Assembly: GCA_900765525.1 (NCBI GenBank)
Contig: CAAFRY010000081.1
Span: 1 to 31,678 of the forward strand
DNA from: an uncultured Blautia sp.
Lineage (GTDB): Bacteria > Bacillota > Clostridia > Lachnospirales > Lachnospiraceae
Direction of reading: 5' to 3'
DNA: 31,678 bases
Under the pieces are notes generated by a model that saw only the letters and a program-made list of their open reading frames with translations, made no database searches and was not told the origin of the DNA. Positions 4,011 to 27,246 of the stretch are shown in pieces (the stretch's first letter is position 1; every line of letters starts with the position of its first letter). Both the position numbers and the translations under genes were made by a program.

Positions 4011-4043
4011 GATGTTTCCGCTCCTTTGAAATCCTTTAACCCA

Positions 4044-4085: not shown

Positions 4086-4100
4086 CTTTATGGAAACAAG

Positions 4101-4141
4101 AAAAACGGGCTGCCCCGCTAATTTCTTAGTGAAGCAGCCCG
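4101..4141 (-). terminator. Rho-independent terminator of uxuA-uxuB
   Basis: CGGGCTGC (4106-4113) pairs with GCAGCCCG (4134-4141); the inner region can add a short CTAA/TTAG stem. Read on the minus strand the stem is followed by TTTTTCTTG. It lies 30 bases after the uxuB stop codon. Confidence 0.85.
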
Positions 4142-4170
4142 CTTTATGAATGAAAATCAAGGTTTGGAAA

Positions 4171-13400: not shown

Positions 13401-14016
13401 CATCGGATTCGGCGGTGTTGACCATGTATTAGCTTCCGGTCAGGATATTAATGTAATGGTATTCGATACAGAGGTTTACTCCAATACAGGCGGTCAGTCT
13501 TCTAAATCTACACCAACAGGTGCTATCGCTCAGTTCGCTGCAGGCGGTAAAGAGGTTAAGAAGAAAGATATGGCTTCCATCGCTATGAGCTACGGCTATG
13601 TATACGTTGCACAGATTGCTATGGGTGCTGACTTCAATCAGACTGTAAAAGCTATTGCAGAGGCAGAGGCTTATCCGGGACCATCTCTGATTATTGCTTA
13701 CGCTCCATGTATCAACCATGGTATCAAGAAGGGTATGAGCAAGGCTCAGACAGAGGAAGAACTGGCAGTTAAGTGCGGATACTGGCACAACTTCCGTTTC
13801 AATCCTGCTGCTGAGAACAAGTTTACTCTGGATTCCAAGGCTCCTGCAGCTGAAGGCTATCAGGAATTCCTGGATGGAGAGGTTCGTTACAATTCTCTGA
13901 AACGCTCTAATCCGGAAAAGGCAGCCAGACTGTTCGCTAAGAATGAAGCAGAAGCTAAAGAAAGATATGCTTACCTGAACAAACTGGTTACTCTGTACGG
14001 AAAGACAGAAGAGTAA
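10477..14016 (+). CDS. nifJ: Pyruvate:ferredoxin (flavodoxin) oxidoreductase, single chain
   Basis: A 1179-residue cytosolic enzyme converting pyruvate and CoA to acetyl-CoA, CO2 and reduced ferredoxin, full length for the family. In order: the pyrimidine-binding domain with AIYPITPSSVMAE (about 26-38); a central gamma-type domain with LRFGKSPI and the CNPSYI region (about 470-500); two 4Fe-4S clusters in CIQCNRCAYVCP (about 692) and CTGCGSCANVCP (about 747); and the thiamine diphosphate domain with GACAGCGETPY (about 815), GGDGWAYDIG (about 968) and YSNTGGQSSKSTP (about 1000). Codons are strongly biased (GCT, GTT, AAC, TTC), more than in neighbours, a sign of very high expression. It stands alone between its own promoter and terminator. 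Confidence 0.98.
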   Translation: MARKMKTMDGNHAAAHASYAYSDVAAIYPITPSSVMAEATDEWATQGRKNIFGQEVQVTEMQSEAGAAGAVHGSLAAGALTTTYTASQGLLLMIPNLYKIAGEQLPGVINVSARALASHALSIFGDHSDVYACRQTGCAMLCESSVQEVMDLTPVAHCAAIKGKVPFINFFDGFRTSHEIQKIETWDYEDLKDLVDMDAIDAFRKHALNPNHPCQRGSAQNPDIFFQAREACNPYYDALPALVQEYMDKVNAKIGTNYKLFNYYGAEDAEHVIIAMGSACETIEETIDYLMAAGKKVGLVTVRLYRPFCAEALVNAIPDSVKQISVLDRTKEPGSLGEPLYLDVVAALKGTKFNDVPVFTGRYGLGSKDTTPAQIVAVYENTTKQKFTIGIVDDVTNLSLEVGAPLVTTPEGTINCKFWGLGADGTVGANKNSIKIIGDNTDMYAQAYFDYDSKKSGGVTMSHLRFGKSPIKSTYLIKQANFVACHNPSYIDKYNMVQELVDGGTFLLNCPWDAEGLEKHLPGQVKAFIANHNIKFYVIDGIKIGKEIGLGGRINTVLQSAFFKLANIIPEEHAIELMKAAAKATYGRKGDAIVQMNYDAIDAGAKQVVEVQVPESWKDCADEGLAMAHAENGRKDVVDFVNNVQAKVNAQEGNSLPVSAFTEYVDGTTPSGSSAYEKRGIAVDIPVWQPENCIQCNRCAYVCPHAVIRPVAMTEAEVAAAPEGMKTLPMTGMADYKFVMTVSAYDCTGCGSCANVCPGKKGAKALVMQNMEANAGEQKYFDYAVELPVKEDVIAKFKENTVKGSQFKQPLLEFSGACAGCGETPYAKLITQLFGDRMYIANATGCSSIWGNSSPSTPYTVNAKGQGPAWSNSLFEDNAEFGYGMLLAQKAIRGGLKAKVESVMASAEASEEVKAACQEWLDTFNSGITNGAATDKLVAALEGVDCDVCKDIVKNKDFLAKKSQWVFGGDGWAYDIGFGGVDHVLASGQDINVMVFDTEVYSNTGGQSSKSTPTGAIAQFAAGGKEVKKKDMASIAMSYGYVYVAQIAMGADFNQTVKAIAEAEAYPGPSLIIAYAPCINHGIKKGMSKAQTEEELAVKCGYWHNFRFNPAAENKFTLDSKAPAAEGYQEFLDGEVRYNSLKRSNPEKAARLFAKNEAEAKERYAYLNKLVTLYGKTEE

Positions 14017-14067: not shown

Positions 14068-14449
14068 GCCCTCGCAGCAATCGCCAAACGAGCAGGCAAG
14101 CCTGCACGTTTGGCTGGTTGCTTGCGGAAATAAATGTGTCCAAACGAGTGAAAGAGGGTGTAGTCGGATGACTCCGATTTAACCCTCTGATACAAAAAAA
14201 CTTTCCTGAAAGATTCCGGCATTTTTAAAGCCTTGAATTTAAGCAGGAAAGTTTTTTTATACTATAATACGGTTATTTATAGGTATATAAAACCTGACTG
14301 TTGATATTTACAATCACTATAATAACAAAAACAGAAAGATATTCGGTGGGTGTGCCCCTTCCCACATTTCTTTTGACCCAAAGGGTGCGTAGCAGCACAA
14401 TCTCTACTTCAAATATCTCTCTGCTTAGTGTATTTACATTATAGCGTTT
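14068..14449. other. Hairpin-rich non-coding interval
   Basis: No credible gene. Three structures follow one another. GCCAAACG (14083-14090) pairs with CGTTTGGC (14107-14114), with an inner stem GCAGG/CCTGC and loop CAAG. AGAGGGT (14153-14159) pairs with ACCCTCT (14182-14188) around an inner TCGGA/TCCGA stem. AAAAAAACTTTCCTG (14194-14208) pairs with CAGGAAAGTTTTTTT (14244-14258), a terminator-like stem that works on either strand. CCAAACGAG occurs twice (14084 and 14140 region). From 14260 to 14449 the sequence is AT-rich with no clear structure beyond a TATAAT-like string on each strand. Confidence 0.7.
14194..14262. terminator. Bidirectional terminator-like stem
   Basis: A perfect 15-bp stem (14194-14208 with 14244-14258) has seven A bases on its left edge and seven T bases on its right edge, so both strands would end in a U-run. 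The 35-base loop is unusually long. It could back up the nifJ terminator and stop transcription arriving from the convergent gene at 14450-14923. Confidence 0.55.
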
Positions 14450-14923
14450 TTATTCCTTTTTGTAAAGCACACTATCTTTGCCAAGCAAAATACTATTCTT
14501 TTCAATCATTTTTCTTAAATTCCGTTCTCTAATTCTATAAAATGTCATCACAGAATTTTTTAATCCTTTTTCATCTGTTTCAAGAGCCACCCTTACAACA
14601 ACATTTAAATTTGTGTCAGTCAGTTTTCTTATCATAAAAACAGTCCCTTTATTCTTCCCATCTCTGATTATGATATCCGGTTTCTGAACAGTTTCTACTC
14701 CGTATTTTTTGAATAATTCATAGTCTTCCGGGTGTCTTATTTTTATATGCTCTTCTCTCTCGCTTGTTATAATTATTTCGTTGGTATGAATTTTTCCAAA
14801 TTCTTTTTCTATAGCCTCTTTTTTTATTTTTCCCAAAAAACGTATCTTATCCAATGCCACTTCCTCTTTCTCACTCATTGAGTTAATTATATCAGAATTA
14901 GTATTCTTTTCAACAAAATCCAT
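14450..14923 (-). CDS. Orphan protein with a PBECR/BECR-type nuclease-like fold
   Basis: A 157-residue charged, soluble protein without signal peptide. Its core, a strand-rich region with EEHIKIRHPEDYELF (His59, His64), then QKPDIII, then MIRKL, LNVVVRVALE and NSVMTFYRIRERNLRKM, resembles the pattern of the phage/prophage Barnase-EndoU-ColicinE5/D-RelE-like (PBECR) nuclease domains. Those occur as toxins or as parts of phage proteins. Here it is a lone gene; no immunity or antitoxin gene is adjacent. It is more AT-rich than its neighbours and has no clear Shine-Dalgarno at ATG 14923; ATG at residue 16 is an alternative. Assignment is by motif memory, and the function could be different. Confidence 0.55.
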   Translation of the reverse strand: MDFVEKNTNSDIINSMSEKEEVALDKIRFLGKIKKEAIEKEFGKIHTNEIIITSEREEHIKIRHPEDYELFKKYGVETVQKPDIIIRDGKNKGTVFMIRKLTDTNLNVVVRVALETDEKGLKNSVMTFYRIRERNLRKMIEKNSILLGKDSVLYKKE

Positions 14924-15097: not shown

Positions 15098-15856
15098 ATG
15101 AAAGAGCCAGAAGTTAAAGTAAAAAGCCTTCAGAAAGCCATGGAAGTATTAAATTGCTTTGCTGAAGAGCGGCGCACCTTGGGAGTTACGGAAATCAGCG
15201 AAAAATTAGGATTATATAAGAGTAATGTACATAATATTTTGATGACATTTAAGGCCATGCATTATCTGGAACAGGAAGAAGAAACAGGGAAATTCTATTT
15301 GGGAAGCGCTGTCTTAGGGCTGGCCAGAGCCTTCAGCGACAGCTACGATATATCGAAAATCGTGCTGCCCTATATGAGGAAAATTTCCCAGGAGGTTCAT
15401 GAGCTGGTGTATTTGGCTGTACCTTCCAGAGATGAGGTTATATATCTGGAGGCTGTTTACCCGGAGAAAAGCTTTTTTGTGGCCCCTTCTATCCGGGGAG
15501 AGCATGCAAAAATGTATTGTACCAGTGTAGGAAAGGCCATATTGTCCAGGATGCCGGAAGAAGAAATAGAAAAACGGATTCCCCATGAGTTGGTATCCTT
15601 TACAGACTATACCATTACAGACAGGGAAGAAATCAAGCGGCAGATTGCTCAGGCCAGAGAGAGGGGTTATGCTTTCGACAATATGGAGGTCACCTATGGC
15701 ATAAAATGTGTGGGGGTTCCCATTGTAAACCAGGAAGGGCATGTGGAAGCTGCACTGAGCATTAGTACCCCCTCCCTTCGTATGAGTGATGATAAAATAC
15801 CGGAGTTTGTAAATGTGCTGAAGAAATATGTGAGCGAGATTGAAAAAAGACTGTAG
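15098..15856 (+). CDS. IclR-family transcriptional regulator
   Basis: A 252-residue regulator with the two-domain IclR plan. Residues 5-70 are the winged helix: VKSLQKAMEVLNCFAEERR, then LGVTEISEKLGLYKSNVHNIL. The rest is the GAF-like effector domain, with YCTSVGKAIL, the linker to RERGYAFDNMEVTYGIKCVGVPI and VEAALSISTPSLRM. Family members are mostly repressors released by an aromatic or other small acid. ATG 15098 has GGAG upstream and the promoter just before it. It lies 205 bases ahead of the catabolic cluster in the same direction, and two repeated GAAC/GTTC boxes lie in that gap, so it probably controls the cluster. The effector may be the substrate or a 2-oxoacid intermediate; that is inference. 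Confidence 0.93.
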   Translation: MKEPEVKVKSLQKAMEVLNCFAEERRTLGVTEISEKLGLYKSNVHNILMTFKAMHYLEQEEETGKFYLGSAVLGLARAFSDSYDISKIVLPYMRKISQEVHELVYLAVPSRDEVIYLEAVYPEKSFFVAPSIRGEHAKMYCTSVGKAILSRMPEEEIEKRIPHELVSFTDYTITDREEIKRQIAQARERGYAFDNMEVTYGIKCVGVPIVNQEGHVEAALSISTPSLRMSDDKIPEFVNVLKKYVSEIEKRL

Positions 15857-15901
15857 TATATGTGAAAAATGCATAAAAAAGAGAAAAAACAAAGAAAAAT
15901 A

Positions 15902-15930
15902 TTGAAAAATGTGATATGTGGTGGTAAAAT
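15902..15930 (+). promoter_or_regulatory. Promoter of the amino-acid catabolic cluster
   Basis: TTGAAA (15902-15907) and TAAAAT (15925-15930) are 17 bases apart. The predicted transcription start near 15937 is only about eight bases before the first repeated box, so a bound repressor would block initiation or early elongation. Confidence 0.65.
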
Positions 15931-15944
15931 GAATTCAACAAATA

Positions 15945-15971
15945 AGAACGGAGTTCTACAATAGAGAACAA
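15945..15971 (+). repeat. Operator-like box 1 (three GAAC/GTTC half-sites)
   Basis: This 27-base box contains AGAAC, then GTTCT three bases on, then AGAAC after a further seven bases, so alternating half-sites form two overlapping inverted repeats. It agrees with box 2 (16015-16041) at 23 of 27 positions, the four changes all falling in the spacers. It begins just downstream of the predicted transcription start. Confidence 0.75.
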
Positions 15972-15977
15972 GAAAAG

Positions 15978-15999
15978 CCCGGTGAGGAACCGGGATTTC
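15978..15999 (+). other. Small hairpin between the two operator boxes
   Basis: CCCGGT (15978-15983) and ACCGGG (15989-15994) form a 6-bp GC-rich stem with loop GAGGA, followed by ATTTCTT. The tail is too poor in T for a strong terminator; it could be a pause site or weak attenuator in the leader of the first catabolic gene. Confidence 0.4.
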
Positions 16000-16014
16000 T
16001 TACAAGGTATATTG

Positions 16015-16041
16015 AGAACAGTGTTCTGTAATAGAGAACAA
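16015..16041 (+). repeat. Operator-like box 2 (three GAAC/GTTC half-sites)
   Basis: Second copy of the box at 15945-15971, exactly 70 bases later, with the same AGAAC, GTTCT, AGAAC order and the identical final run AATAGAGAACAA. It ends a few bases before the AAGGAGG ribosome site of the dehydrogenase gene. Its 70-base spacing (about 6.7 helical turns) would allow looping between regulator dimers or tetramers. Confidence 0.75.
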
Positions 16042-16061
16042 TAAAAAGGAGGATTTTTATT

Positions 16062-17234
16062 ATGGCAAACAAACCTTATGTAGTGGTGGAATGGAACGAT
16101 ACGGAGACAGATGCAAAGGGCTGGATGTGCGCTTACAACTTTGTAAACCATTATTGTGGCGGGGGTACCCGGATGCATCCTACAGTTACTAAGGAGGAAG
16201 TGATTCGGCTGGCCACAACTATGGGATATAAGTACAAAGCTTGTGAATCCCTTACCACCGGCGGATGTAAGGCTGGAATTGCTTATGATTACAAGGCTCC
16301 GGATGCCTTGGATGTATTAAGGAGATTTTTAACAGCTACAGCTCCCTATATCAATGCAGGAGTATCCATCGGAGGAGATTTGGGCGTGGATTATTCTGAT
16401 GTACTCCGTATTTTAGACGACCTTGGAATTGGTATTCCGCAGACAAAGGCCATGAAAGAAGACCCGGATATTCATCAGGGTATTGTAAATCATGATAGAG
16501 CGGAAAAAGAGCTGACCTATGACGGGTTTAAAATGTACGATATGATTACCGGTTACGGCGTAGCGGCTGCAGCAGACGAAGCATGGAAAATGAAAGGCGG
16601 AGCCGAAGGAGCTTCTGTAGTGATTCAGGGATTCGGATGTGTAGGCGCAAGCTGTGTTAATTCTTTATATAAAATGGGCTACAAAGTGGTTGGTATTGCA
16701 GATGTAAACGGACTTGTTTATTGCAAGGATGGTCTGAATATTCCGAAGCTGGTAGAAACCAGACTGCCAAAAGGCGAATTAAACCGGGAAGCCTTTGAAG
16801 AAAATTATGAGGTATTGCCTAACAGTAAATGGATTGAAATGGACTGCGATATTTTGATTCCGGCGGCTCTGGAAGACGTTATCAATGAAAAGAACGCAGA
16901 TTTGGTGAAAGCTTCCCTTTTGGTAGAGGCAGCCAACATTCCTACTACACCGGAAGCAGATGAAATCCTTCGGAAAAAGGGCGTGGATGTAGCTGTTGAC
17001 TTTATCTCCAATTTAGGAGGCATCCGTATCTACGAAGCAGTTATTTTCCGTATTGTAAAGATAGAAAATATGAATGACCAGGATGCGGCCGCCGCTATCG
17101 TAGATGATACAGTAAATCTGATTCGGAAACAGACAAAACTTGTATTTGAAGAATCTAAGAAAACAGGAGAATTCACAAGAGACGTGGCCAGAAGACTGTT
17201 TACACCAGATAAGTCCGATACCCCGGATATGTAA
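16062..17234 (+). CDS. Glu/Leu/Phe/Val dehydrogenase family, probably acting on a neutral amino acid
   Basis: A 390-residue NAD(P)-dependent enzyme that would deaminate an L-amino acid to its 2-oxoacid with release of ammonium. The catalytic set is present: Lys57 in MGYKYKACE, Lys70 in TGGCKAGI and Asp106 in GGDLGVD. The substrate segment is CGGGTRMHP (32-40): it matches the GGTRM signature of leucine dehydrogenase, and the lysine that binds the side-chain carboxylate in glutamate dehydrogenase (KGGLRF) is Gly33 here. The nucleotide-binding loop GFGCVGASC is followed by IADVNG, whose Asp suggests NAD. The C-terminal SNLGGIRIYEAVIF differs from ordinary GDH. It is the first gene of the catabolic cluster, after AAGGAGG. 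Confidence 0.88.
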   Translation: MANKPYVVVEWNDTETDAKGWMCAYNFVNHYCGGGTRMHPTVTKEEVIRLATTMGYKYKACESLTTGGCKAGIAYDYKAPDALDVLRRFLTATAPYINAGVSIGGDLGVDYSDVLRILDDLGIGIPQTKAMKEDPDIHQGIVNHDRAEKELTYDGFKMYDMITGYGVAAAADEAWKMKGGAEGASVVIQGFGCVGASCVNSLYKMGYKVVGIADVNGLVYCKDGLNIPKLVETRLPKGELNREAFEENYEVLPNSKWIEMDCDILIPAALEDVINEKNADLVKASLLVEAANIPTTPEADEILRKKGVDVAVDFISNLGGIRIYEAVIFRIVKIENMNDQDAAAAIVDDTVNLIRKQTKLVFEESKKTGEFTRDVARRLFTPDKSDTPDM

Positions 17235-17298
17235 TATCTCTGACAGATAACAGGAAACATACAGAACAACACGGAAAAACCGTATATCTGCCATGATA

Positions 17299-17340
17299 GG
17301 GAAGAGGCTGTCGCTGGAGTTTATGCGGCGGCTTCTTTCC
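17299..17340 (+). other. Wobble-rich RNA stem-loop between the dehydrogenase and MFS genes
   Basis: The 16 bases at 17299-17314 pair with 17325-17340 across a 10-base loop. Four of the sixteen pairs are G-U in the plus-strand RNA and would be A-C mismatches in the opposite RNA, so the structure belongs to the plus transcript. No T-tract follows. It may stabilise the upstream mRNA end, be a processing site, or partly terminate. Confidence 0.5.
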
Positions 17341-17372
17341 GTCTAAACCAGCAAGAAAGGAGAATAAAACCT

Positions 17373-18614
17373 ATGAATGGAAAGCTGAAAAAATATATTA
17401 CAGTAGTGGCCCTGGGATTGGCGGGCGGTTCCATTTATTTTTTGCCCTATATTAAATACGTTTTTTATGATGCACAGATTGCAGCCATGGGCATCAATAA
17501 CACACAGTCAGGACTTTTGCTGTCCATGTATACCATTGGAAATATGATTTTGTATATTCCGGGAGGAATACTGGCGGATAAGTTTTCGCCGAAAAAATCG
17601 CTAATTATATCTCTGTTAAGTACAGCGGTATTAACATTTATTTATGCATTTACTTTTGACTATACCATAGCTCTTGGCATTTGGTTCTGCTTATCCTTCT
17701 CCACGGCCTTTGTATTCTGGTCTTCTTTGATGAAGGCAGTGCGAATGATTGGAACGGAAAAAGAGCAGGGATTTATGTATGGTCTTTACTATGCATGCAA
17801 CGGACTTTCCGGTGCCCTGATACAGGCTGTAGCCCTGACGGTTTCCGGACAGGCGGGAGATATTGTAAGCGGATTCTTCCGGGCATGTATGGTTGGCGGT
17901 ATCTTTAATGTGATAGCTGCTGTAGCTCTTTTCTTCTTGCTGGATGATAAGCATGTGGCTCAGGGAGAGGCTTCAGAAGAATCCAGATTCCGTTTCAAAG
18001 ATGTGGGTGTCTTACTGAAAAGGCCTACAGTCTGGATGGTATCTTTGATTATCCTCTGCGGTTATGGGATTTATTCCAGCTCCTCCTACTTTACCCCTTA
18101 TCTGACAGATGTTATGGGGATTTCCGCTTCCAGCTCCGGATTGGTAACCGTGCTGAGAACTTATGTATTTATGCTCCTGGCTCCGGTGGGAGGACTGATT
18201 GCAGACAAAGTATTCAAGTCCACTTCCAAGTGGCTGGCATTGGCACTGACCATTTTGGCAGTTCTTTACGGAGGCGTTCTCCTTCTTCCTGAGGGAATCA
18301 GTTCTTCCATGGCTGTTTTGTATTCCTTGCTTCCGGGAGCCGTAGGCCTGATGATGTATGGTGTTGTGTTCTCTGTTGTCAGTGAGGCAGGAGTGTCCAG
18401 GGCCATGACGGGAACGGTTATTGGCCTGACCTCTATTATAGGCTATCTGCCGGATTTCTTTTATTCCGCCATGTTCGGAAGCTGGCTGGATAAAAACGGC
18501 AACGCCGGTTACAATCAGATTTTTCTATTTTTAGCGGCAACTGCTTTGCTGGGGGCCGTGATAGCATTCCTGGTAAGCAGAAACAGTAAAAAAACTGCAA
18601 AAGCAGGAGAATAG
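17373..18614 (+). CDS. MFS transporter
   Basis: A 413-residue membrane protein with about twelve hydrophobic segments. The cytoplasmic loop between helices 2 and 3 carries the MFS motif GGILADKFSPKKSLI, and a degenerate copy, GGLIADKVFKSTSKW, occurs in the second half, as usual for the duplicated fold. A hydrophilic central loop (about residues 195-215) separates the halves. It lies between the dehydrogenase and the oxidoreductase genes, with AAAGGAG ahead of its ATG and only 14 bases to the ferredoxin gene. It could import the amino acid or export the acid produced; neither can be told from sequence. Confidence 0.9.
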   Translation: MNGKLKKYITVVALGLAGGSIYFLPYIKYVFYDAQIAAMGINNTQSGLLLSMYTIGNMILYIPGGILADKFSPKKSLIISLLSTAVLTFIYAFTFDYTIALGIWFCLSFSTAFVFWSSLMKAVRMIGTEKEQGFMYGLYYACNGLSGALIQAVALTVSGQAGDIVSGFFRACMVGGIFNVIAAVALFFLLDDKHVAQGEASEESRFRFKDVGVLLKRPTVWMVSLIILCGYGIYSSSSYFTPYLTDVMGISASSSGLVTVLRTYVFMLLAPVGGLIADKVFKSTSKWLALALTILAVLYGGVLLLPEGISSSMAVLYSLLPGAVGLMMYGVVFSVVSEAGVSRAMTGTVIGLTSIIGYLPDFFYSAMFGSWLDKNGNAGYNQIFLFLAATALLGAVIAFLVSRNSKKTAKAGE

Positions 18615-18628
18615 AGAGGAAAAGAAAT

Positions 18629-18841
18629 ATGGGAAAAGAAAAAAAAGAAAAAGTGTATGTGAATCCAAACCGCTGCAAAGCCTGCGGATATTGTATCAAT
18701 GCCTGCCCCAGAGATGCGATTTCATTTTCAGATTATGTAAATCCCAAAGGCTACAATGGGGTACAGGTGGATGAGAGCAAATGTATTGTATGCGGTTCAT
18801 GCTACAGAGTATGTCCGGATTATGTATATGAAATTCGTTAA
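18629..18841 (+). CDS. 2-oxoacid:ferredoxin oxidoreductase, ferredoxin-like delta subunit
   Basis: A 70-residue protein with two 4Fe-4S motifs: CKACGYCINACP (about 16-27) and CIVCGSCYRVCP (about 52-63). This is the size and pattern of the small electron-transfer subunit of VOR/KGOR-type enzymes. It precedes the alpha gene by 15 bases to the preferred start and would carry electrons from the thiamine site in the beta subunit to free ferredoxin. A lysine-rich N terminus (GKEKKEKVYV) is present. Confidence 0.92.
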   Translation: MGKEKKEKVYVNPNRCKACGYCINACPRDAISFSDYVNPKGYNGVQVDESKCIVCGSCYRVCPDYVYEIR

Positions 18842-18856
18842 GGGAGGATGAGGATT

Positions 18857-19909
18857 ATGGCCAAGAGATTGATGAAAGGAAATGAGGCACTGGCGGAGGC
18901 GGCGCTGGCAGCCGGATGCCGTTTTTACAGCGGCTATCCAATTACCCCCCAGACAGAAATCCTGGAGTATTTATCCTGGAGAATGGATGAGGTTGGAGGA
19001 GAATTTATTCAGGCAGAGTCAGAGCTGGCAGGCGTTAACATGGTTCTGGGAGCCGCAGCGGCAGGAGCCAGAGCATTGACTACTTCCGCAGGTCCGGGAT
19101 TTTCCCTGAAGCAGGAAGGAATCTCCTATCTGGTAGCAGCAGACCTTCCGGCGGTAATCGTAGATGTTATGAGAATCGGAACCGGACTGGGGGATATTGC
19201 ACAGGGACAGGGAGACTATTGGCAGCTGACCAGAGGCGGCGGACATGGAGATTACCACACTTTAGTATTGGCGCCTGCGTCAGTTCAGGAAAATGCGGAT
19301 ATTATGGCAGAGGCCTTTGACCTGGCTGAGAAGTACCGCCATCCGGTATTGATTGCTTCAGATGCAGCTATCGGACAGATGATTGAAGCTGTGGAAATTC
19401 CTCCTTTTGTAGAGCATGATATTGATAAGTATGACTGGAGCATCAAAGGCTGTAAAAAGGGATGTGAGCAGAGAAAGATTCAAAACGTCTACTACACCCA
19501 TCCGGATTATGAAAATTATCTGAGAGATAAATATGCAAAAATGGAAGCAGAGGAACAGCGGTACGAAACTATTCAGGTAGAGGACGCACAGGTAGTCCTG
19601 GTTGCCTATGGCATCAGCTCCAGAGTATGCAGAGAGGCTGTGGAGACAGCCAGGGAGCAGGGCTTTGCCTTAGGCCTGATTCGCCCCATCAGCCTGTGGC
19701 CTTTCCCGGTAAAGGCATTTGAAAAAGCGAAAAAAGCAGAAGCTTTTCTGACTGTGGAGATGAACATCCTGGGCCAGATGGTAGATGATGTGAAACTGGC
19801 TACAGAAGGAAAATATCCGGTGGACCATTATGGTTCTATTTTTGAAATCCCTGAGACAGATGGGATTATTGCCAAAGCAAAAGCAATGTTGAAAAAGGAG
19901 GGTGTGTGA
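18857..19909 (+). CDS. vorB: 2-oxoacid:ferredoxin oxidoreductase, alpha subunit (VorB-like)
   Basis: A 350-residue subunit carrying the pyrimidine-binding domain (about 1-190) with YSGYPITPQTEILEYL and ESELAGVNMVLGAA, followed by the transketolase C-terminal-like domain (about 240-345). It lacks a fused gamma domain, which is a separate gene here. The frame opens at ATG 18848, but the GGAGG is then directly against the start; ATG 18857, eight bases beyond, has normal spacing and gives MAKRLMKGNEA. Sequence style is that of VorB/KorA proteins of Clostridia, used for branched-chain or other 2-oxoacids; distinguishing 2-oxoisovalerate from 2-oxoglutarate is not possible by eye, but the neighbouring dehydrogenase argues for a neutral substrate. 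Confidence 0.9.
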   Translation: MAKRLMKGNEALAEAALAAGCRFYSGYPITPQTEILEYLSWRMDEVGGEFIQAESELAGVNMVLGAAAAGARALTTSAGPGFSLKQEGISYLVAADLPAVIVDVMRIGTGLGDIAQGQGDYWQLTRGGGHGDYHTLVLAPASVQENADIMAEAFDLAEKYRHPVLIASDAAIGQMIEAVEIPPFVEHDIDKYDWSIKGCKKGCEQRKIQNVYYTHPDYENYLRDKYAKMEAEEQRYETIQVEDAQVVLVAYGISSRVCREAVETAREQGFALGLIRPISLWPFPVKAFEKAKKAEAFLTVEMNILGQMVDDVKLATEGKYPVDHYGSIFEIPETDGIIAKAKAMLKKEGV

Positions 19910-19910
19910 T

Positions 19911-20645
19911 ATGAGATTAGTAGCACCTGAAACAGTAACCTTTACCCAGAGTGGTTTTTGCCCGGGCTGCGGCCATGGTCTTGCCGTACGTCTGATTGCA
20001 GAAGTTATGGAAGAAATGGACCTTAGCGAGCAGCTGCTGGCAGTGGTAGATGTTGCCTGTGGTTCTTTAAATATTGATTCCTGGAGATTTGATACAGTAA
20101 TGGCCGCTCATGGAAGACCGATTGCCACGGCAGTGGGAATAAAAAAAGTGAGAAAAAATAATCCGGTAATGGCCTATATCGGTGATGGAGCCGCTTACTC
20201 TATCGGTATGGCAGAGACCATGCATACAGCTATCCGAAATGATAATGTGGTAACTATTGTAATCAACAACAGTCTGTACGGAATGACGGGAGGACAGTGC
20301 GCCCCTACTTCTCTGCCGGGACAGATTACTACTTCCACACCTTACGGAAAAGACCCGGAAAAATGCGGTATGCCCTTCCGGGTGGAGAATGCCTTTACCG
20401 GCCTGGATATTGCTTACCTGGCCAGAGGCTCCATGGCAGATGCCAAAGGAATGATACAGTGTAAAAAATACATAAAAAAAGCTTTTGAAAAACATATGCG
20501 GGGGGAAGGCTTCTGTCTGATAGAACTTTTGTCTCCCTGTCCCACCAACTTAAACATGAGCCCGGTGAAGAGTATGGAAAGAATCAAAACCGAAATGGTG
20601 AAATATTTTCCGCTGGGAGAATTTCAGGATAAGAAGGGGGAATAA
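19911..20645 (+). CDS. 2-oxoacid:ferredoxin oxidoreductase, beta (thiamine diphosphate) subunit
   Basis: A 244-residue subunit holding thiamine diphosphate. FCPGCGHG (about 17-23) provides the first conserved region, AAHGRPIATAVGIK follows, then the diphosphate/Mg motif GDGAAYSIGMAE (from about 91) with INNSLYGMTGGQ (from about 117). Together with the alpha, gamma and delta subunits it would form acyl-CoA and CO2 from a 2-oxoacid. A GTG at 19902 is in frame, but ATG 19911, one base after the alpha stop and nine bases after AAGGAGG, is the better start. The stop is three bases before the gamma gene. Confidence 0.92.
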   Translation: MRLVAPETVTFTQSGFCPGCGHGLAVRLIAEVMEEMDLSEQLLAVVDVACGSLNIDSWRFDTVMAAHGRPIATAVGIKKVRKNNPVMAYIGDGAAYSIGMAETMHTAIRNDNVVTIVINNSLYGMTGGQCAPTSLPGQITTSTPYGKDPEKCGMPFRVENAFTGLDIAYLARGSMADAKGMIQCKKYIKKAFEKHMRGEGFCLIELLSPCPTNLNMSPVKSMERIKTEMVKYFPLGEFQDKKGE

Positions 20646-20648
20646 AAA

Positions 20649-21188
20649 ATGGCAAAAGAAATTATTTGTGCAGGCTTCGGAGGACAGGGTGTCCTTACAG
20701 CAGGAATGCTTTTAATCAATGCAGGAATGGAGCAGGATAAGAACGTGCTGTTTTACCCCTCCTACGGTTCAGAAATGCGGGGAGGTACAGCCAACTGTAC
20801 GGTGAAAATCAGCGACAAACTGATTGCAAGCCCGGTGTCCAAACAGCCGGATATTTTATTTACTATGAATACCCCTGCTATTGATAAATTCGAGGAACGG
20901 TTAAAACCAGGCGGTCTGCTTCTGGTGAATTCTTCTATTGTACCGGAGGACAGGAGCTACCGGGAGGACATAAAAGTGGTAAAAATCCCTGCCACAGACA
21001 TTGCGGCAGAACTGGGAAATCCCAAAGGCGCAAACCTGGTAATGCTGGGGGCGCTTGCGGCTCACAGTGACTTATTTACTATTGAATATATGGAAACCGC
21101 TATTGTTTCCTTTTTTGAGAAAAAGGGCAAAGGCAAATATAATGAAAAGAATGTGGCCTGTTATCGAAGAGGTGTAGAAGGAAAATAA
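20649..21188 (+). CDS. 2-oxoacid:ferredoxin oxidoreductase, gamma subunit
   Basis: A 179-residue protein of the POR/KOR gamma family. It begins with the typical ICAGFGGQGVLTAGMLL and has YPSYGSEMRGGTANCTVKIS and the later NPKGANLVMLGALA, both characteristic. The domain helps bind CoA and completes the four-subunit enzyme. Its ribosome site (AAGGGGG) lies inside the end of the beta gene, implying coupled translation. It is followed after 16 bases by the acyl-CoA synthetase gene. Confidence 0.93.
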   Translation: MAKEIICAGFGGQGVLTAGMLLINAGMEQDKNVLFYPSYGSEMRGGTANCTVKISDKLIASPVSKQPDILFTMNTPAIDKFEERLKPGGLLLVNSSIVPEDRSYREDIKVVKIPATDIAAELGNPKGANLVMLGALAAHSDLFTIEYMETAIVSFFEKKGKGKYNEKNVACYRRGVEGK

Positions 21189-21204
21189 AGGGAGGTAGTT
21201 CAGA

Positions 21205-23307
21205 ATGGATTTGACAAAACTGTTAAAGCCAAAATCTGTGGCAGTCATCGGAGCCAGCGAAAAGAATGGATTTGGGGGAGATGTATGCAGAAACATCCTG
21301 ACCTATGTGGAAGATAAAAGCAGAATTTATTTTGTACATCCCAAAAGAGAGCAGGTGTTTGGCATACCCTGTCATAAATCCGTTACAGAGATACCGGATA
21401 CCATAGATTTGATGATTATCTGTACATCCCAGAAGACAGTCGTTCCCCTTTTGGAGGAGGGCAGTAAAAAAGGCTGCAAAGGCGCCGTTGTATTTGCCAG
21501 CGGTTACGGAGAAGTGGGAACAGAGGAAGGCAGAGAAAACGAGAGAATTCTACAGGAAACCGCCAAAAGATTAGACATAGCTGTCATGGGTCCAAACTGT
21601 GCAGGATTCGTAAATTGCGTGGATAACGTACAGGGATTTGCCTTTATTTCTGAGAAGAGAGACCGAAAAGGAAGTGTGGGCGTGGTATCCCAAAGCGGAC
21701 AGTTATGCTTATCCCTGATGGACTGTCCGGGAATGCGGTTTTCTTATATCATATCTGCAGGAAACGCAAAGATTGTGCAGATGGAAGATTACATGGAGTT
21801 TTTGGTGGACGATGAAGATACCAAAGTGCTCAGCATTTATATTGAAGGAGTAAAGAATGCGGAGAAATTCGGGGAAGTCCTGAAAAAAGCCGCTCTCAAG
21901 AGAAAACCGGTAGTCATCTTAAAGGCAGGAAGAAGCGCCAAAGGCGGTGCCATAGCAGCCTCCCATACAGGAAGTCTTTCCGGCTCTGATGCCTCCTTTG
22001 ATGCGGTACTGAAAAAGTTTGGAGCAATCCGGGTGGACGACCTGGAAGAACTGATGGCCATGTCCCTGATGCTCTCCACGCTGAAAAAGCTTCCGGAAAA
22101 ACCATCTTTTGCTTCTATGAATCTTTCCGGAGGAGAAACCGGTATCTGCGCTGACGTGGGAAGTATATATGGTATTCACTTCCCGGATTTTACAGAGGAG
22201 ACCCTGATTAAGCTGAAAAACCAGCTTCCGGATTATGCTTCTCCCAATAATCCTCTGGATATGACAGCCAGCCTGTCTTATGATGCAGATTTATATGCAG
22301 AGGCTCTTAGGACGGTTATGGAAGACTCCAATGTAGGCATGGTTTTGGTTGGGTATACACTGCTGCTGGAGATTGCAGACCCTGCCATTCATTATATGTA
22401 TGAAGGAATCGAAAAAGTAATCCGGGAAAAAGGAGAGGACTGTAAGCCTATTGCTATGATTCCCTTTGCGGAAAATACCAGAAACCCGGAATATCAGGAA
22501 AAACTGTTCCATATAGGAGTTCCGGTGCTTCCGCCTACGGTATATGCTTTTAAACTGTTGAAATACCTGTCAGATTTTATTGCTTATAAGCCGGAAGAAA
22601 AATCCCTTTCCCTGTGTCCGGGAGAAAAGAAGGCAGGAGAAACCTATGCTTTATCTGAACACAGCAGCAAGGAAGAATTAAGGAAATACGGTGTTCCATC
22701 TGCTGAAGAAATCATTGCCCAGTCAGAGGAAGAGGCAGTAAAATTTGCAGAAAAATATAATCAGCCGCTGGCTATGAAAGTGGAGTCCGCCGATATTCTC
22801 CACAAAAGTGATGTAGGGGGCGTGAAGCTGAACGTACAAGGCGGAGCGCAGGCAAAAGCCGCCTACCAAGAGATTATGGAAAATGTGAGGAAAAATCGCC
22901 CGGATGCAAAAATCAACGGAATTTTAATGGTTCCTATGCTGAAAAAAGGGATAGAGATGATTATCGGCGTCAATAATGACCCACAGTTCGGCCCTATGCT
23001 TATGGTGGGAATGGGAGGGGTTTTTGTGGAAGTCTTTAAAGATGTTTCCTTATACCCGGCTCCTGTGAACCGACAGGAGGCCATGGATATGCTGAAATCA
23101 TTAAAAGCCTTTAAACTGTTAAAAGGATACAGAGGCGCCAAGCCCTGCGATATAGATGCTCTGTGCGACACCATAATCGGTATCGGAAATTATGCGGCAG
23201 CCAATAAGGATGTGCTGAAAGAATTAGACATAAATCCGCTGTTTATTTATGAAGAGGGAGAAGGCGTAGGCCTGGCAGACGCTCTCATTGTAAAATATAA
23301 GGAATAA
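21205..23307 (+). CDS. ADP-forming acyl-CoA synthetase (acetate--CoA ligase family, ACD)
   Basis: A 700-residue fused enzyme that turns an acyl-CoA, ADP and phosphate into the free acid, CoA and ATP. The CoA-binding Rossmann domain comes first (VAVIGASEKNGFGGDV, about 13-28), then the succinyl-CoA-ligase-like domain with the phosphohistidine His254 in SHTGSLSGSD, a third domain to about 460, and the ATP-grasp domain at the C-terminal end with the second histidine His533 in ILHKSDVGGVKL. Both transferred-phosphate histidines are present, so it should be active. In archaea the same enzyme ends amino-acid fermentation after VOR, IOR and POR. It follows the oxidoreductase genes directly, with GGGAGG upstream. 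Confidence 0.93.
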   Translation: MDLTKLLKPKSVAVIGASEKNGFGGDVCRNILTYVEDKSRIYFVHPKREQVFGIPCHKSVTEIPDTIDLMIICTSQKTVVPLLEEGSKKGCKGAVVFASGYGEVGTEEGRENERILQETAKRLDIAVMGPNCAGFVNCVDNVQGFAFISEKRDRKGSVGVVSQSGQLCLSLMDCPGMRFSYIISAGNAKIVQMEDYMEFLVDDEDTKVLSIYIEGVKNAEKFGEVLKKAALKRKPVVILKAGRSAKGGAIAASHTGSLSGSDASFDAVLKKFGAIRVDDLEELMAMSLMLSTLKKLPEKPSFASMNLSGGETGICADVGSIYGIHFPDFTEETLIKLKNQLPDYASPNNPLDMTASLSYDADLYAEALRTVMEDSNVGMVLVGYTLLLEIADPAIHYMYEGIEKVIREKGEDCKPIAMIPFAENTRNPEYQEKLFHIGVPVLPPTVYAFKLLKYLSDFIAYKPEEKSLSLCPGEKKAGETYALSEHSSKEELRKYGVPSAEEIIAQSEEEAVKFAEKYNQPLAMKVESADILHKSDVGGVKLNVQGGAQAKAAYQEIMENVRKNRPDAKINGILMVPMLKKGIEMIIGVNNDPQFGPMLMVGMGGVFVEVFKDVSLYPAPVNRQEAMDMLKSLKAFKLLKGYRGAKPCDIDALCDTIIGIGNYAAANKDVLKELDINPLFIYEEGEGVGLADALIVKYKE

Positions 23308-23324
23308 GTCGGAAGGGAGGCCCT

Positions 23325-24503
23325 ATGGTACAGAAAATAATAAAAGACAGCATTGATATGTATTATGAAAAGGCAAAGGAATTAGGAGATTATCTTACCA
23401 ATCATCCGGAAATCAGCGGAAAAGAGGAAAATTCCTGCAAATATATTACAGAATTTTTGAAGACCCAGGGATATGAGATTACTGCTCCCTATGCAGGTAT
23501 GCCTTATTCCTTTCTGGCTGTGGATAAGAGAAGACAGGGAGACGCAGGAAAAAAGGCAGCGTTTTTATGCGAGTATGACGCCCTGCCGGAAGTGGGACAT
23601 GCCTGTGGGCATTCCTTTAGCTGTGGAATCAGCGTTCTGGCAGCTTTAGCTCTGAGAAATGCCTGCCCGGATTTGCCAATCCGCATGGATTTGGTGGGCA
23701 CTCCGGGAGAGGAGTTTGTTGGGGGAAAGTGCTATATGACACAGAACGGTGGTTTTGATGATTATGAATATGCAGCGATGGTACATCTTCACAATCAGGA
23801 TATTACTTATTTTCAGGTACTGGCCTCCAATGACAGATATTTTACTTTCCGTGGCAAAGCGGCCCATGCTTCCTCCGCACCGGAGGAAGGGCTGAATGCA
23901 TTAAATGCGGCCAGGCTCTTTATGGATGCCATGGATATGTGGAGGCAGCATATATCCAAGGATTGTCAGTTCCACGGCATTGTGGACAAGGGAGGGACTG
24001 CCCCAAATATTGTGCCGGATGAGGTCTGTCTTGACTATTATTACCGGGCGGCTACCATAGAGAATCTGTGGAAATTAAATAAGATTTCTGAGACCTGCGC
24101 CCAGGGTGCTGCAATGGCTACGGGGACCCAGGTGGAATGGCAGCAAAGGTATCCGGATTACGGAGAAATTTACTGGAATGACTATATGGACGGAATGATG
24201 AAAGAGCTTTATGAGAATGTGGGCAGAACTCCGGTGAAATCCCCGGGACCGGGAGGTTCTTCAGATATTGGAAATGTAAACATGAAGATTCCGGTATTTC
24301 ATCCTATGCTGGATATTACAGGAAATAGAAAAGAATATGTCATTCATGACCGGAAGTTTGAAGAGCTTCTCCACACGGAGGCAGCGGGAAAAGCGTTAAA
24401 GGACGGTGCCGCTGTTCTGGCTGAGCTGGCCTATAAGCTTGCCATGGAGCCGGATTCCCTGAAAAATATCAAAGAGGCCCACGCTGCCTACAGAAAGCTG
24501 TAA
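23325..24503 (+). CDS. M20 family amidohydrolase / metallopeptidase
   Basis: A 392-residue cytosolic zinc hydrolase of the M20D kind (AbgB, IAA-amino-acid hydrolase and aminoacylase relatives). The metal-binding region is CEYDALPEVGHACGHS (His92, Cys94, His96; the usual final Asn is Ser), followed by the catalytic glutamates in GTPGEEFVGGK and a later histidine in AMVHLHN. The lid domain starts FRGKAAHASSAPEEGLNALNAA, with APNIVPDEV behind it. Such enzymes cut amide bonds of N-acyl amino acids, aryl-amino-acid conjugates or dipeptides. It lies 17 bases after the acyl-CoA synthetase gene, which suggests it releases the amino acid fed into the pathway. Confidence 0.9.
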   Translation: MVQKIIKDSIDMYYEKAKELGDYLTNHPEISGKEENSCKYITEFLKTQGYEITAPYAGMPYSFLAVDKRRQGDAGKKAAFLCEYDALPEVGHACGHSFSCGISVLAALALRNACPDLPIRMDLVGTPGEEFVGGKCYMTQNGGFDDYEYAAMVHLHNQDITYFQVLASNDRYFTFRGKAAHASSAPEEGLNALNAARLFMDAMDMWRQHISKDCQFHGIVDKGGTAPNIVPDEVCLDYYYRAATIENLWKLNKISETCAQGAAMATGTQVEWQQRYPDYGEIYWNDYMDGMMKELYENVGRTPVKSPGPGGSSDIGNVNMKIPVFHPMLDITGNRKEYVIHDRKFEELLHTEAAGKALKDGAAVLAELAYKLAMEPDSLKNIKEAHAAYRKL

Positions 24504-24532
24504 ATCAGACGGAAAATACCAGGGGGAAACAT

Positions 24533-25672
24533 ATGATAGAAATTAAAAATGTTTCAAAATCTTACAGAGATAAGCTGATACTGCGAAATATTAACCTGGT
24601 TTTCGAGACAGGGCAGTTTATCGTCATTATCGGTTCCAGCGGCTGTGGGAAGACCACGCTGTTAAAGATGATAAATAAGCTTCTTCCCATGGATTCCGGC
24701 GATATTCTCATAGACGGGAAATCTATCCGGGAAATACCGGATACCAAGCTGCGAAGAAGGATTGGATATGTGATACAAGATGGAGGATTGTTTCCCCATC
24801 TTACGGTAAGAGAAAACCTGGAAATCATGTTGAAAATAGAGGGAATGCCTCCGGAAAAGCGGGAAAAAAGGGTGCTGGAGCTGCTGGATATGGTAAATTT
24901 GAACCCGAAAATTTATTCCAACAGTTATCCCTGCCAGCTGTCCGGAGGCCAAAAGCAGAGAGTGGGAGTGGCCAGAGCTTTTGCCGCTGATACGGACTTG
25001 ATTTTAATGGACGAGCCTTTTTCGGCTTTGGACCCTCTTACCAGAGAAGAGCTGCAAAATGAGATAGTAAAGCTGCAGAAAAGGTATAAGAAAACCATTG
25101 TTTTTGTCACCCATGACATGGACGAGGCCATTAAATGTGCGGATAAGATATGCGTGATTCAAAACGGACAGGTCATACAGTTTGACCAGCCGGAGAAAAT
25201 TTTAAAATATCCCCAGAATGATTATGTGGAAATGTTTATCGGGAAGAACCGTCTATGGGGAAATCCTTCCTATATCCGGGCAGGAGATATTATGTGCCGG
25301 GAATCTTTCCAGCTGTCAAAGGACCGGACGGTTTTGCAGGCCCTGCAGATTATGCGGCAGAACATGATTAACAGTGTGTTGATTACACATGGGAACTCCA
25401 GGAAGCTGGACGGGGTTGTGTGGCTGGAAAACATCCGGAAGCTGCCGGATTCCCAGCTTGGAATGCCGATTCAGCAAATCATGAGCCAGGACTATAAGAC
25501 CGTATATGAGGAAACAACGCTTCAGGAAATCATCAATACCATTGATTATAAAAAATCCGGTGTTATTCCTGTTTTAAATCAACGGGGAGAATTAAAGGGT
25601 ATATTGACAAAAAGTATATTGCTGTCGGTATTGAGCAAACGTTACAGACAGACAGAGGGGGCTGAGGAATGA
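24533..25672 (+). CDS. OpuC/ProV-type ABC transporter ATP-binding protein with CBS domains
   Basis: A 379-residue ATPase. Walker A is GSSGCGKTT (34-42), the signature LSGGQKQR, Walker B LILMDEP and switch histidine THDMDEA. After about residue 245 two CBS domains follow (ICRESFQ... and IQQIMSQDYKTVYE...), the regulatory unit that lets OpuA/OpuC-type systems respond to ionic strength or nucleotides. The family usually imports quaternary amines such as glycine betaine, carnitine or choline, and in EgtUV-type systems ergothioneine. The gene overlaps the permease gene by four bases (ATGA), so both are made together. Confidence 0.93.
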   Translation: MIEIKNVSKSYRDKLILRNINLVFETGQFIVIIGSSGCGKTTLLKMINKLLPMDSGDILIDGKSIREIPDTKLRRRIGYVIQDGGLFPHLTVRENLEIMLKIEGMPPEKREKRVLELLDMVNLNPKIYSNSYPCQLSGGQKQRVGVARAFAADTDLILMDEPFSALDPLTREELQNEIVKLQKRYKKTIVFVTHDMDEAIKCADKICVIQNGQVIQFDQPEKILKYPQNDYVEMFIGKNRLWGNPSYIRAGDIMCRESFQLSKDRTVLQALQIMRQNMINSVLITHGNSRKLDGVVWLENIRKLPDSQLGMPIQQIMSQDYKTVYEETTLQEIINTIDYKKSGVIPVLNQRGELKGILTKSILLSVLSKRYRQTEGAEE

Positions 25673-27246
25673 ATGGATTGTTAGACGTTTTTTATCAGAG
25701 AAAAGAAGAGCTGTACCAATTATTCCTTCAGCATATGGAGATGACAGCCATTGCGGTGCTGCTTTCTGTCTGTATAGGAATTCCTCTGGGAATTCTTATT
25801 ACAAAGAATAAGAAAGCTTCGGGAATTGTCATAGGAACGGCCAATTTGATGCAGTCTATCCCAAGTATAGGACTTCTGGCCTTTTTAGTTCCTATCGTAG
25901 GAATCGGGGAAAAGCCGGCAATTATTATGGTGATTATTTACGCCTTGCTTCCTATTATCAAAAATACTTATATCGGTATTACGGGAATTGACCCCTTGAC
26001 CGTAGAATCTGCCAACGGAATTGGATTATCTAAAATGCAGTCTTTATTTCAGATTCAGATTCCCATTGCCATGCCTTATATTATGGCAGGCATACGGATT
26101 TCTGCCGTTACCGCCGTTGGAACAGTGACCATCGCCGCCTTTGCAGGTGCAGGAGGCCTGGGCTGGTTTATCAATTTAGGCTTAAATGCCAATGACCCGG
26201 ATTTAGTGCTTTTGGGAGCCATTCCGGCCTGTCTTTTGGCTCTGGTGGTGGATTTTATTTTGGGAAAAGCAGAAGCTGTCCTTACTCCTGAGGGTCTAAA
26301 GGCAGCAGACAAAATACATTACCGCACACGAAAGGAGCAAAATCGGCGAATTGCAGGAGCAGTTGTATTTTTCGTGATTATATTCTTGTTTCCTGTGGTT
26401 CATACCCTTGTGGCAAACCTTCGGGAAAAACAAGATACTCTTGTAGTGGGAAGCGAAAATTTTACAGAAGCCATTATACTGGGAAATATTTACAGCCAGC
26501 TTATCCAGAATCAAACAGATATTCAGGTGGAAGAACGATTTAATTTAAATGGAACCATGATTACCATGTCTGCCATGGAAAACGGGGACATTGATACTTT
26601 TACAGATTATACCGGCGTTCTGGCGCCTAATGTGCTGGGACTCAGTTTGTCAGAAAATCCGGAAAATCTCTATGAAACAGTAAAGGAAAAAATGCTGCAG
26701 GAATACAGTATGGAGGTTTCACAGCCTTTAGGGTTCAGCAATACTTATGTCTTTGCGGTGACAAGGGAAACCTCGGAGAAGTATGGAATTACCAAGCTTT
26801 CCCAGCTGTTGGAACAGGCAGGGGAGCTTCGGCTGGGCTGTACAACAGCCTTTACCCAAAGAGAAGACCTGCTTCCTAAATTGCAGACAGAATACCAGAC
26901 TGAATTTAAAAGCGTGGACGGTTTGGAAGGAAATATCCGCTATCAGGCCATCAGCTCCGGAAAGGTAGAGGTGGTGGATGCCTTCGAGACAGACGCTATT
27001 TTGATGGATATGGATTTGGTGAAAATAGAAGACGACATAGAATATTTTCCTCCTTATGAGGCGGTTGCAGTGACTAGGGAAGACAGCTTCCAGAAGTTTC
27101 CGGAGCTGAGAGAAGTCATGGAAACCCTGGAGGGAGAAATTTCTACAGAAGACATGACAGAAATGAATTATAAGGTGGATATAGAAGGCAAGACTCCTAA
27201 AGAAACAGCAATTGAGTTTCTGAAGGAGAAAAATCTTATAGAATAA
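25669..27246 (+). CDS. OpuC/EgtU-type permease fused to its substrate-binding protein
   Basis: A 525-residue fusion. Residues 15-215 form a BPD-type permease with about five or six helices and the EAA-like loop (ANGIGLSKMQSLFQIQIPIAMP). One more hydrophobic segment (about 228-247) anchors a C-terminal OpuAC-type binding domain (about 258-525) outside the cell, starting VGSENFTEAIILGNIYSQLI. It has the family's TDYTGVLAP, GFSNTYVFAV, FETDAILMD and FPPYEAVAV segments. The family's usual PEYTGT and EFxxRxDG stretches are changed to TDYTGV and AFTQREDLL, hinting at an unusual ligand. Fusion of permease and binding protein is the plan of pneumococcal EgtU and some OpuC systems. It is the last gene before the terminator. 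Confidence 0.92.
   Translation: MNGLLDVFYQRKEELYQLFLQHMEMTAIAVLLSVCIGIPLGILITKNKKASGIVIGTANLMQSIPSIGLLAFLVPIVGIGEKPAIIMVIIYALLPIIKNTYIGITGIDPLTVESANGIGLSKMQSLFQIQIPIAMPYIMAGIRISAVTAVGTVTIAAFAGAGGLGWFINLGLNANDPDLVLLGAIPACLLALVVDFILGKAEAVLTPEGLKAADKIHYRTRKEQNRRIAGAVVFFVIIFLFPVVHTLVANLREKQDTLVVGSENFTEAIILGNIYSQLIQNQTDIQVEERFNLNGTMITMSAMENGDIDTFTDYTGVLAPNVLGLSLSENPENLYETVKEKMLQEYSMEVSQPLGFSNTYVFAVTRETSEKYGITKLSQLLEQAGELRLGCTTAFTQREDLLPKLQTEYQTEFKSVDGLEGNIRYQAISSGKVEVVDAFETDAILMDMDLVKIEDDIEYFPPYEAVAVTREDSFQKFPELREVMETLEGEISTEDMTEMNYKVDIEGKTPKETAIEFLKEKNLIE

Follow-up and report, generated by a model that had tools for sequence, protein, structure and literature searches.

Archaea such as Pyrococcus ferment peptides with 2-oxoacid:ferredoxin oxidoreductases (OFORs) of the VOR and IOR types and an ADP-forming synthetase, ACS. 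The gene cluster that we describe here, located in a window of 31,678 nucleotides (the whole stretch of DNA analysed, contig CAAFRY010000081.1 of an uncultured Blautia sp., assembly GCA_900765525.1), likewise places an OFOR before an ADP-forming acyl-CoA synthetase (ACD), but we know of no archaeal example in which these genes form a single operon that also encodes an importer and a regulator, as they do here. Clusters of an OFOR and an ADP-forming ligase were noted in print for anaerobic bacteria in 2026 (PMC13285125). The same source describes tyrosine oxidation by HpdDEFG-HpdJ-HpdK of Clostridium scatologenes, the closest system to ours: in this gene cluster of an anaerobic Firmicute, too, a four-subunit OFOR turns a 2-oxoacid into an acyl-CoA, and ATP and reduced ferredoxin are obtained afterwards. 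Unlike the Hpd system, our locus has a dedicated amino-acid dehydrogenase, an ACD that replaces transferase and kinase, an onium-type importer, a PM20D2-like hydrolase, an IclR operator pair and a probably non-aromatic substrate (PMC13285125).

A first-pass annotation of this DNA had stressed that all the steps of an amino-acid oxidation stand in one bacterial cluster. They do, but the arrangement is less unusual than was thought, because OFOR-ligase clusters were already in print; OFOR-ACD modules are an already known kind, and the window cluster is a new variation on them. We propose, with a probability of about one half, that it is an IclR-controlled oxidative fermentation operon dedicated to an onium amino acid, that is, one with a quaternary-ammonium or sulfonium group.

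Open reading frame (ORF) calls and profile searches found all the genes named by that annotation on the + strand between 15098 and 27246, as it had described (Table 1). The IclR gene is followed by 205 bp and the dehydrogenase gene by 138 bp; from the MFS gene to the end of the cluster the genes overlap or are separated by at most 29 bp. One operon encodes alpha, beta and gamma subunits separately, together with a 2x[4Fe-4S] delta subunit, which identifies a four-subunit OFOR. Its alpha subunit, for which the closest solved structure is 1yd7 (208 bits), and its gamma subunit pass NCBIfam subfamily cut-offs, whereas beta does not (TIGR02177, 108.5 vs 261.9). The alpha model NF005507 describes a subfamily, and a pass on VorB does not fix the OFOR substrate. 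A complete pyruvate:ferredoxin oxidoreductase (PFOR), already pointed out in the first reading, is encoded apart from the cluster OFOR at 10477-14016 (TIGR02176, 1813 bits vs a cut-off of 911), so that the cluster OFOR need not serve pyruvate. The ACD combines CoA-binding, Succ_CoA_lig and ATP-grasp_5 domains with His533, which we take to be the second catalytic histidine, and His254. The role of His254 is assigned by its correspondence to His292 of DddX (PMC8163506). The closest solved structure is the 4-hydroxybutyrate-CoA ligase 8wzu (382 bits), and the ACD scores below cut-off on all NCBIfam equivalog models for named acids. Such an oxidative 2-oxoacid pathway should, as predicted earlier, give reduced ferredoxin and ATP, and it is a conserved unit in relatives.

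Relatives were found by a contig scan with the window ACD, which gave ten loci, eight of them with the OFOR-ACD core (L001-L008); L009 and L010 hold distant ACDs only and were left out of the counts. With L026, L027, L028, L037 and the window, the core occurs in 13 loci. The gene-order comparison proposed at the outset thus gives the full set, hydrolase and importer included, in L001 and L002, and reduced or modified versions in the ten others. All eight first relatives have OFOR and ACD (the L008 ACD frame is broken), seven have an MFS gene 5' of the OFOR and seven an IclR gene upstream (identity 28% in L005 and 52-72% in the remaining six), while the dehydrogenase and M20 genes occur in the same four (L001-L004) and the ABC importer in two (L001, L002). 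IclR orthologues 50-72% identical to ours, compared by means of a 251-aa query starting one codon late, stand in L001-L004, L007, L008, L026 and L027. In L026, L027, L028 and L037 a dehydrogenase orthologue (65-92%) adjoins OFOR and ACD; the L037 OFOR is only 47-57% identical to that of the window. These four loci came from genome searches with the dehydrogenase at E <= 1e-80, made around Lactonifactor longoviformis with its own genome counted each time. At family level 5 of 397 genomes matched, at order level 4 of 392, at class level 1 of 391 and at phylum level 3 of 398, part of these matches being paralogues at about 50% identity. Since relatives' loci were found but few genomes matched, the gene order is not unique to the window genome, yet it is rare.

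The surroundings of the core vary. L003 has GNAT and BCCT genes 3' of M20; L004 has two threonine-dehydratase-like PALP genes and a second dehydrogenase upstream, with GNAT 5' of M20; L005 has a BCCT and a fused, divergent serine-dehydratase-like protein, and L008 has the same pair as judged by length and place, the L005 dehydratase being the one that was scanned. NhaC stands beside the core in L006, a BCCT in L027, an aldehyde dehydrogenase with an NhaC-type carrier in L028 and L037, and a D-2-hydroxyacid dehydrogenase with MFS and SSF carriers in L007, which has no window-type dehydrogenase. OFOR and ACD are therefore the constant core, and hydrolase, importer and even dehydrogenase are exchangeable, so that the conjugate or dipeptide formerly put forward as the dedicated substrate is not a constant feature. 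Whatever the compound, this is a modular design, with one 2-oxoacid-to-ATP core, mostly one operator, and exchangeable importers and front-end enzymes. The L005 dehydratase-like gene (L005:13717-15309, after the BCCT) scores below serine ammonia-lyase cut-offs; its L008 counterpart, judged from position and length only, lies at L008:13706-15295. The ACD frame of L008 (strain VE202-21, L008:10001-12114) is split into two overlapping ORFs by assembly error or decay; in L037 it is the MFS gene that is divided between two ORFs.

The ACDs of these loci belong together. We observed that a segment, GYTLLxE[IV]xDPxIHYM, is common to the nine unbroken ACDs, which stand with different front-end enzymes in the window, L001-L007 and L027, and absent from the three paralogues compared (L069-L071); L026, where the contig ends inside the ACD, the broken L008 and the paralogues L029, L030, L032 and L038 were left out of this comparison. 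In a tree of 20 sequences, which included these four paralogues but neither L008 nor L026, the cluster ACDs, that of L037 among them, form one group with support 1.0, and L007 joins L002 and L003 (support 1.0) inside the dehydrogenase-M20 group. L. longoviformis (G004) encodes 6 ELFV dehydrogenases and 7 ACDs and has several separate OFOR-ACD modules (L029-L032, L069-L071), some with AgcS, BcaP-like or YfcC-like carriers and one, L069, with a distant BCCT; it is a possible specialist in the fermentation of many amino acids.

The onium reading rests first on the transporters. Downstream of the core, 7 of the 12 informative loci (L026 set aside for its contig end) have a transporter of a family known for quaternary-ammonium or sulfonium compounds, which is of the ABC type in the window, L001 and L002, and a BCCT in L003, L005, L008 and L027. 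BCCT genes are scarce, each of the 11 genomes searched having 0-3, and in G001 and G002 the cluster's own protein is the sole strong OpuAC match. We estimated the chance of such a transporter beside the core at roughly 0.3-1.4% per genome, with genomes taken as independent and the distance fixed post hoc. The four cluster BCCTs form one clade, 56-79% identical mutually (L008 to L005, 79%) and 25-32% to the four other BCCTs compared, and they carry the aromatic motif of transmembrane helix 8; L055, L056, L059 and L060, which lack the regular-expression motif, were left out. Of the solved structures, the dimethylsulfoniopropionate (DMSP) carrier DddT is closest to the L005 BCCT.

The binding protein of the window has as its closest solved structures the binding proteins of acetylcholine and nicotine sensors and EgtUC. 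It resembles EgtU in its fusion of permease and substrate-binding domain, separate ATPase, aromatic cage and carboxylate arginine, the cage being defined after EgtU (PMC9732360). Among the 120 matches listed of 3130, two of which (<=480 aa) were left out, cage residues Tyr314, Asn358, Tyr360, Phe/Tyr439 and Tyr463 and carboxylate Arg398 are found in all 36 orthologues of at least 60% identity; sites were assigned by motif, without a printed alignment to EgtUC itself. Unlike EgtU (PMC9732360), the window protein has Lys242, the invariant Gly244, Thr296 and Glu375 replaced by Glu, Phe, Val and Ala, which led us to reject ergothioneine; for the same reason, the ligand is probably another onium compound. 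The branched-chain or aryl acid product that the first-pass annotation favoured is not supported, in view of these importer and BCCT families and of the kept aromatic cage. The MFS carrier would be an exporter of the acid product, or an importer.

We then considered the region between the IclR gene and the first gene, which holds two copies of AGAAC-N3-GTTCT-N2-A[AT]TA-N2-GAAC, at 15945 and 16015; at up to 3 mismatches, the window has 3 matches vs 0.07 expected. Pairs also occur in L001, L002, L003, L007, L026 and L027, an imperfect pair in L004 and a single copy in L008. In total, among the 13 loci examined, the operator is present in every one of the nine, the window among them, whose IclR reaches 50% identity, and in none of the four others, namely L005 (IclR 28%) and L006, L028 and L037, without such an IclR beside. 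Matches with 0-1 mismatch are confined to this cluster in the 12 whole genomes searched. Copies with 2 mismatches begin 55 bp 5' of the L004 PALP genes and lie 5' of the L003 IclR gene, but matches of this quality are near noise, occurring elsewhere too, and the backward control gave 3 in 12 genomes. As IclR and operator co-occur, the IclR protein is a putative binder of this element, and the presence of one switch ahead of front-end enzymes of different kinds suggests that the effector is shared. The promoter-like site upstream of the operators is by itself no evidence of function, since the scanned region has 41 such sites vs 26.5 in shuffles. Between the operator copies, relatives have hairpins of other sequence at the same place, with stems that appear compensatory by eye; for this reason a transcription attenuator may supplement the control by IclR; alternatively, the repeats may function at the RNA level.

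The dehydrogenase has the fold, the catalytic Lys/Lys/Asp and the GxGxxG of the ELFV superfamily. We take Lys89 and Ser380, in the numbering of C. symbiosum glutamate dehydrogenase, to be the contacts of the glutamate gamma-carboxylate. For the residue counts 7 (<=370 aa) of the 120 matches listed of 508 were left out; all 114 sequences examined have Gly33 and Tyr324 at these two sites, the Ser380 site being placed by eye with a gap nearby, and all 114 have an acidic residue 325. Homologues of dehydrogenase and transporter were counted by sequence match, irrespective of genomic context. With both side-chain contacts absent, glutamate was rejected as the substrate. The M20 protein is related in sequence to PM20D2: its closest solved structure is human PM20D2, 'Xaa-Arg dipeptidase' 7yh4 (E 2e-53, residues 10-384), and on TIGR01891 it scores 142.6 bits, under the cut-off of 153.75. 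PM20D2 has a liking for basic residues.

Importer (in relatives, the BCCT clade), dehydrogenase, OFOR, ACD, M20 and operator pair are read from the sequence, and the following steps would join them. The ABC system would import either the amino acid itself or a small conjugate to be opened by the PM20D2-like M20; the NAD(P)-dependent dehydrogenase would take off the alpha-amino group; the OFOR would convert the 2-oxoacid into acyl-CoA, CO2 and reduced ferredoxin, and the ACD the acyl-CoA into acid and ATP, the acid being exported by the MFS carrier. IclR would sense the substrate or the 2-oxoacid and release the AGAAC-N3-GTTCT operators.

Within the onium class the most likely member is N6-trimethyl-lysine, converted to delta-valerobetaine (TMAVA), although we name it only tentatively. 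Trimethyl-lysine, an amino acid that occurs naturally and bears its quaternary group distally, would fit a Lys/Arg-type dipeptidase, and hydroxy-trimethyl-lysine would suit dehydratase-type front ends, giving the same 2-oxoacid. The cluster might thus, with similar caution, be an anaerobic, energy-yielding gut route from trimethyl-lysine to TMAVA, open also to 3-hydroxy-trimethyl-lysine through the dehydratase versions of relatives. DavB should need O2. Delta-valerobetaine that gut microbes form from trimethyl-lysine has been associated with obesity, fatty liver and heart disease, and its formation has been credited to DavB/DavA, DavB being a lysine 2-monooxygenase (PMC8976029, PMC11773067). 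If the substrate is trimethyl-lysine, the overall conversion would be the same, but the window route would, unlike DavB/DavA, be anaerobic and ATP-yielding. The profiled genes of the window include no enzyme of the DavB/DavA type; no search of whole genomes for such enzymes was made. No oxygen-independent trimethyl-lysine route was recognised in titles and abstract openings among the matches listed from the open-licence PMC literature, outside which most subscription papers lie. The operon is of testable interest because the first named TMAVA enzyme is a monooxygenase and oxygen is scarce in the gut lumen; if the proposal holds, a host-active TMAVA would come from a fermented carnitine precursor, with an onium importer and IclR switch of its own, and carriers of the route could be counted in metagenomes, which makes the question directly testable.

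Several observations speak for caution about an onium substrate. In five of the 12 loci (L004, L006, L007, L028, L037) no onium transporter stands next to the core, strong OpuAC genes occur elsewhere in G004, G005, G008 and G1098, and transporters of the BCCT and OpuC families can take ectoine or proline as well. The EgtU-specific residues are replaced, as said above, and Tyr314, Asn358 and Tyr360 are also present in 80-82 of the 82 more distant transporters among the matches listed, so that the cage marks the transporter family and not this ligand. In the ACD, Thr354 occupies the site of the cation-pi Trp391 of DddX, and an aromatic residue (Tyr) is found only at the Phe435 site. The dehydrogenase pocket is distinctive only in part: of 8 paralogues, 3 have Gly33, 3 Tyr324 and 2 an acidic 325, none has Lys33, and residue 325 is presumed to face the pocket. 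Finally, pyruvate or 2-oxobutyrate would likewise suit the relatives' front ends, which are serine-dehydratase-like in L005, PALPs of the threonine-dehydratase-like kind in L004 and, in L007, a D-2-hydroxyacid dehydrogenase.

These front ends are the starting point of the main rival, in which plain amino acids (alanine, 2-aminobutyrate, serine, threonine, valine or leucine) feed a core that oxidises pyruvate, 2-oxobutyrate or a branched-chain 2-oxoacid, the onium transporters being there for osmoprotection or by chance. The 'VorB' pass of OFOR alpha agrees with it, as do paralogous dehydrogenases or modules in L031, L032, L033 and L038 beside AgcS, or beside a BcaP-like carrier below cut-off. 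We nevertheless consider it somewhat unlikely: a PFOR is already adjacent, the genomes contain few onium-type transporters, and the cluster ACD segment is unlike that of the three paralogues compared.

A cationic but non-quaternary amino acid (lysine, ornithine, arginine or, from ectoine, 2,4-diaminobutyrate), yielding 5-aminovalerate, 4-aminobutyrate, 4-guanidinobutyrate or beta-alanine, would suit the hydrolase related to PM20D2, whose PDB name is 'Xaa-Arg dipeptidase', the invariant acidic residue 325 of the dehydrogenase among the matches listed and the NhaC-type carriers of L006 and L037, of which that of L006 scores 341 on the ArcD model with a cut-off of 650; ectoine, moreover, can use BCCT and OpuC carriers. 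But the complete aromatic cage and the cage-bearing BCCTs point to a methylated onium group, which makes this rival unlikely. Ectoine degradation itself was rejected, as no ectoine hydrolase is among the cluster genes and the ectoine deacetylase model gives 28 bits vs 550.

It is improbable that S-methylmethionine is converted to DMSP by the same steps, although DddT is nearest to the L005 BCCT among solved structures. The ATP-dependent DMSP lyase DddX, too, belongs to the ACD superfamily and is reported to have BCCT or ABC transporters beside it in several genomes (PMC8163506); our ACD keeps its phosphorylated histidine and matches it with 302 bits. Our ACD is nearer, however, to the 4-hydroxybutyrate-CoA ligase, and the PM20D2-like hydrolase and hydroxy-amino-acid-type front ends would be left unexplained. 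A DMSP lyase identity was rejected, since in the alignment Trp391 of DddX corresponds to Thr354 and the site of its catalytic Glu432 is non-acidic. In addition, unlike in the case of DddX (PMC8163506), an OFOR stands upstream of the ACD, so that acid formation is expected, not activation. Very improbable, finally, is the conversion of an N-acyl amino acid or dipeptide to an aryl or branched acid, which the VorB-type alpha subunit and an OFOR-associated, aryl-active ligase of C. difficile (PMC13285125) would favour, but which disagrees with importer and BCCT families that carry onium compounds and with a hydrolase missing in 4 of the 8 first relatives.

Table 1. Genes and sites of the cluster, in window coordinates
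Feature	Position	Strand	Basis
IclR-family regulator, 252 aa	15098..15856	+	PF01614 and PF09339 above cut-off; in-frame ATG at 15098
Promoter-like site TTGAAA-17-TAAAAT	15902..15930	+	consensus scan, 10/12 matches; just 5' of operator copy 1
Putative operator copy 1, AGAACGGAGTTCTACAATAGAGAAC	15945..15969	+	exact match to conserved element
Small hairpin then T-rich stretch, between operator copies	15978..15994	+	terminator-like scan
Putative operator copy 2, AGAACAGTGTTCTGTAATAGAGAAC	16015..16039	+	conserved in relatives
ELFV-superfamily amino-acid dehydrogenase, 390 aa	16062..17234	+	without the glutamate side-chain contacts of glutamate dehydrogenase
MFS carrier, 413 aa	17373..18614	+	PF07690, 106 bits
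OFOR delta, 2x[4Fe-4S] ferredoxin, 70 aa	18629..18841	+	two CxxCxxCxxxC motifs
OFOR alpha, VorB type	18857..19909	+	NF005507, 460.7 bits vs cut-off 399
OFOR beta, thiamine pyrophosphate (TPP) domain	19902..20645	+	PF02775 above cut-off; GDG...NN motif
OFOR gamma	20649..21188	+	PF01558; TIGR02175, 88 bits vs cut-off 81.1
Fused ACD, 700 aa	21205..23307	+	PF13380, PF13607, PF13549 above cut-off
M20 metallohydrolase related to PM20D2, 392 aa	23325..24503	+	closest solved structure 7yh4
ABC ATPase with CBS domain, ProV/OpuCA type	24533..25672	+	TIGR01186, 362.8 bits vs 326.6
Permease-substrate-binding protein fusion, OpuC/EgtU type	25669..27246	+	PF00528 and PF04069

Other features of the window lie on the - strand. 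Between the PFOR and IclR genes, a match to the skipping-rope RNA family (14338-14417, 60.5 bits vs a gathering threshold of 36.7) is followed at 14450-14923 by a small protein with a PBECR2-type nuclease domain (32 bits vs 27), PBECR2 denoting a phage Barnase-EndoU-ColicinE5/D-RelE-like domain. At 729-4160 a VanR-like regulator and a kinase form a two-component pair, both below named-family cut-offs, beside a lantibiotic-protection-like ABC ATPase and permease.

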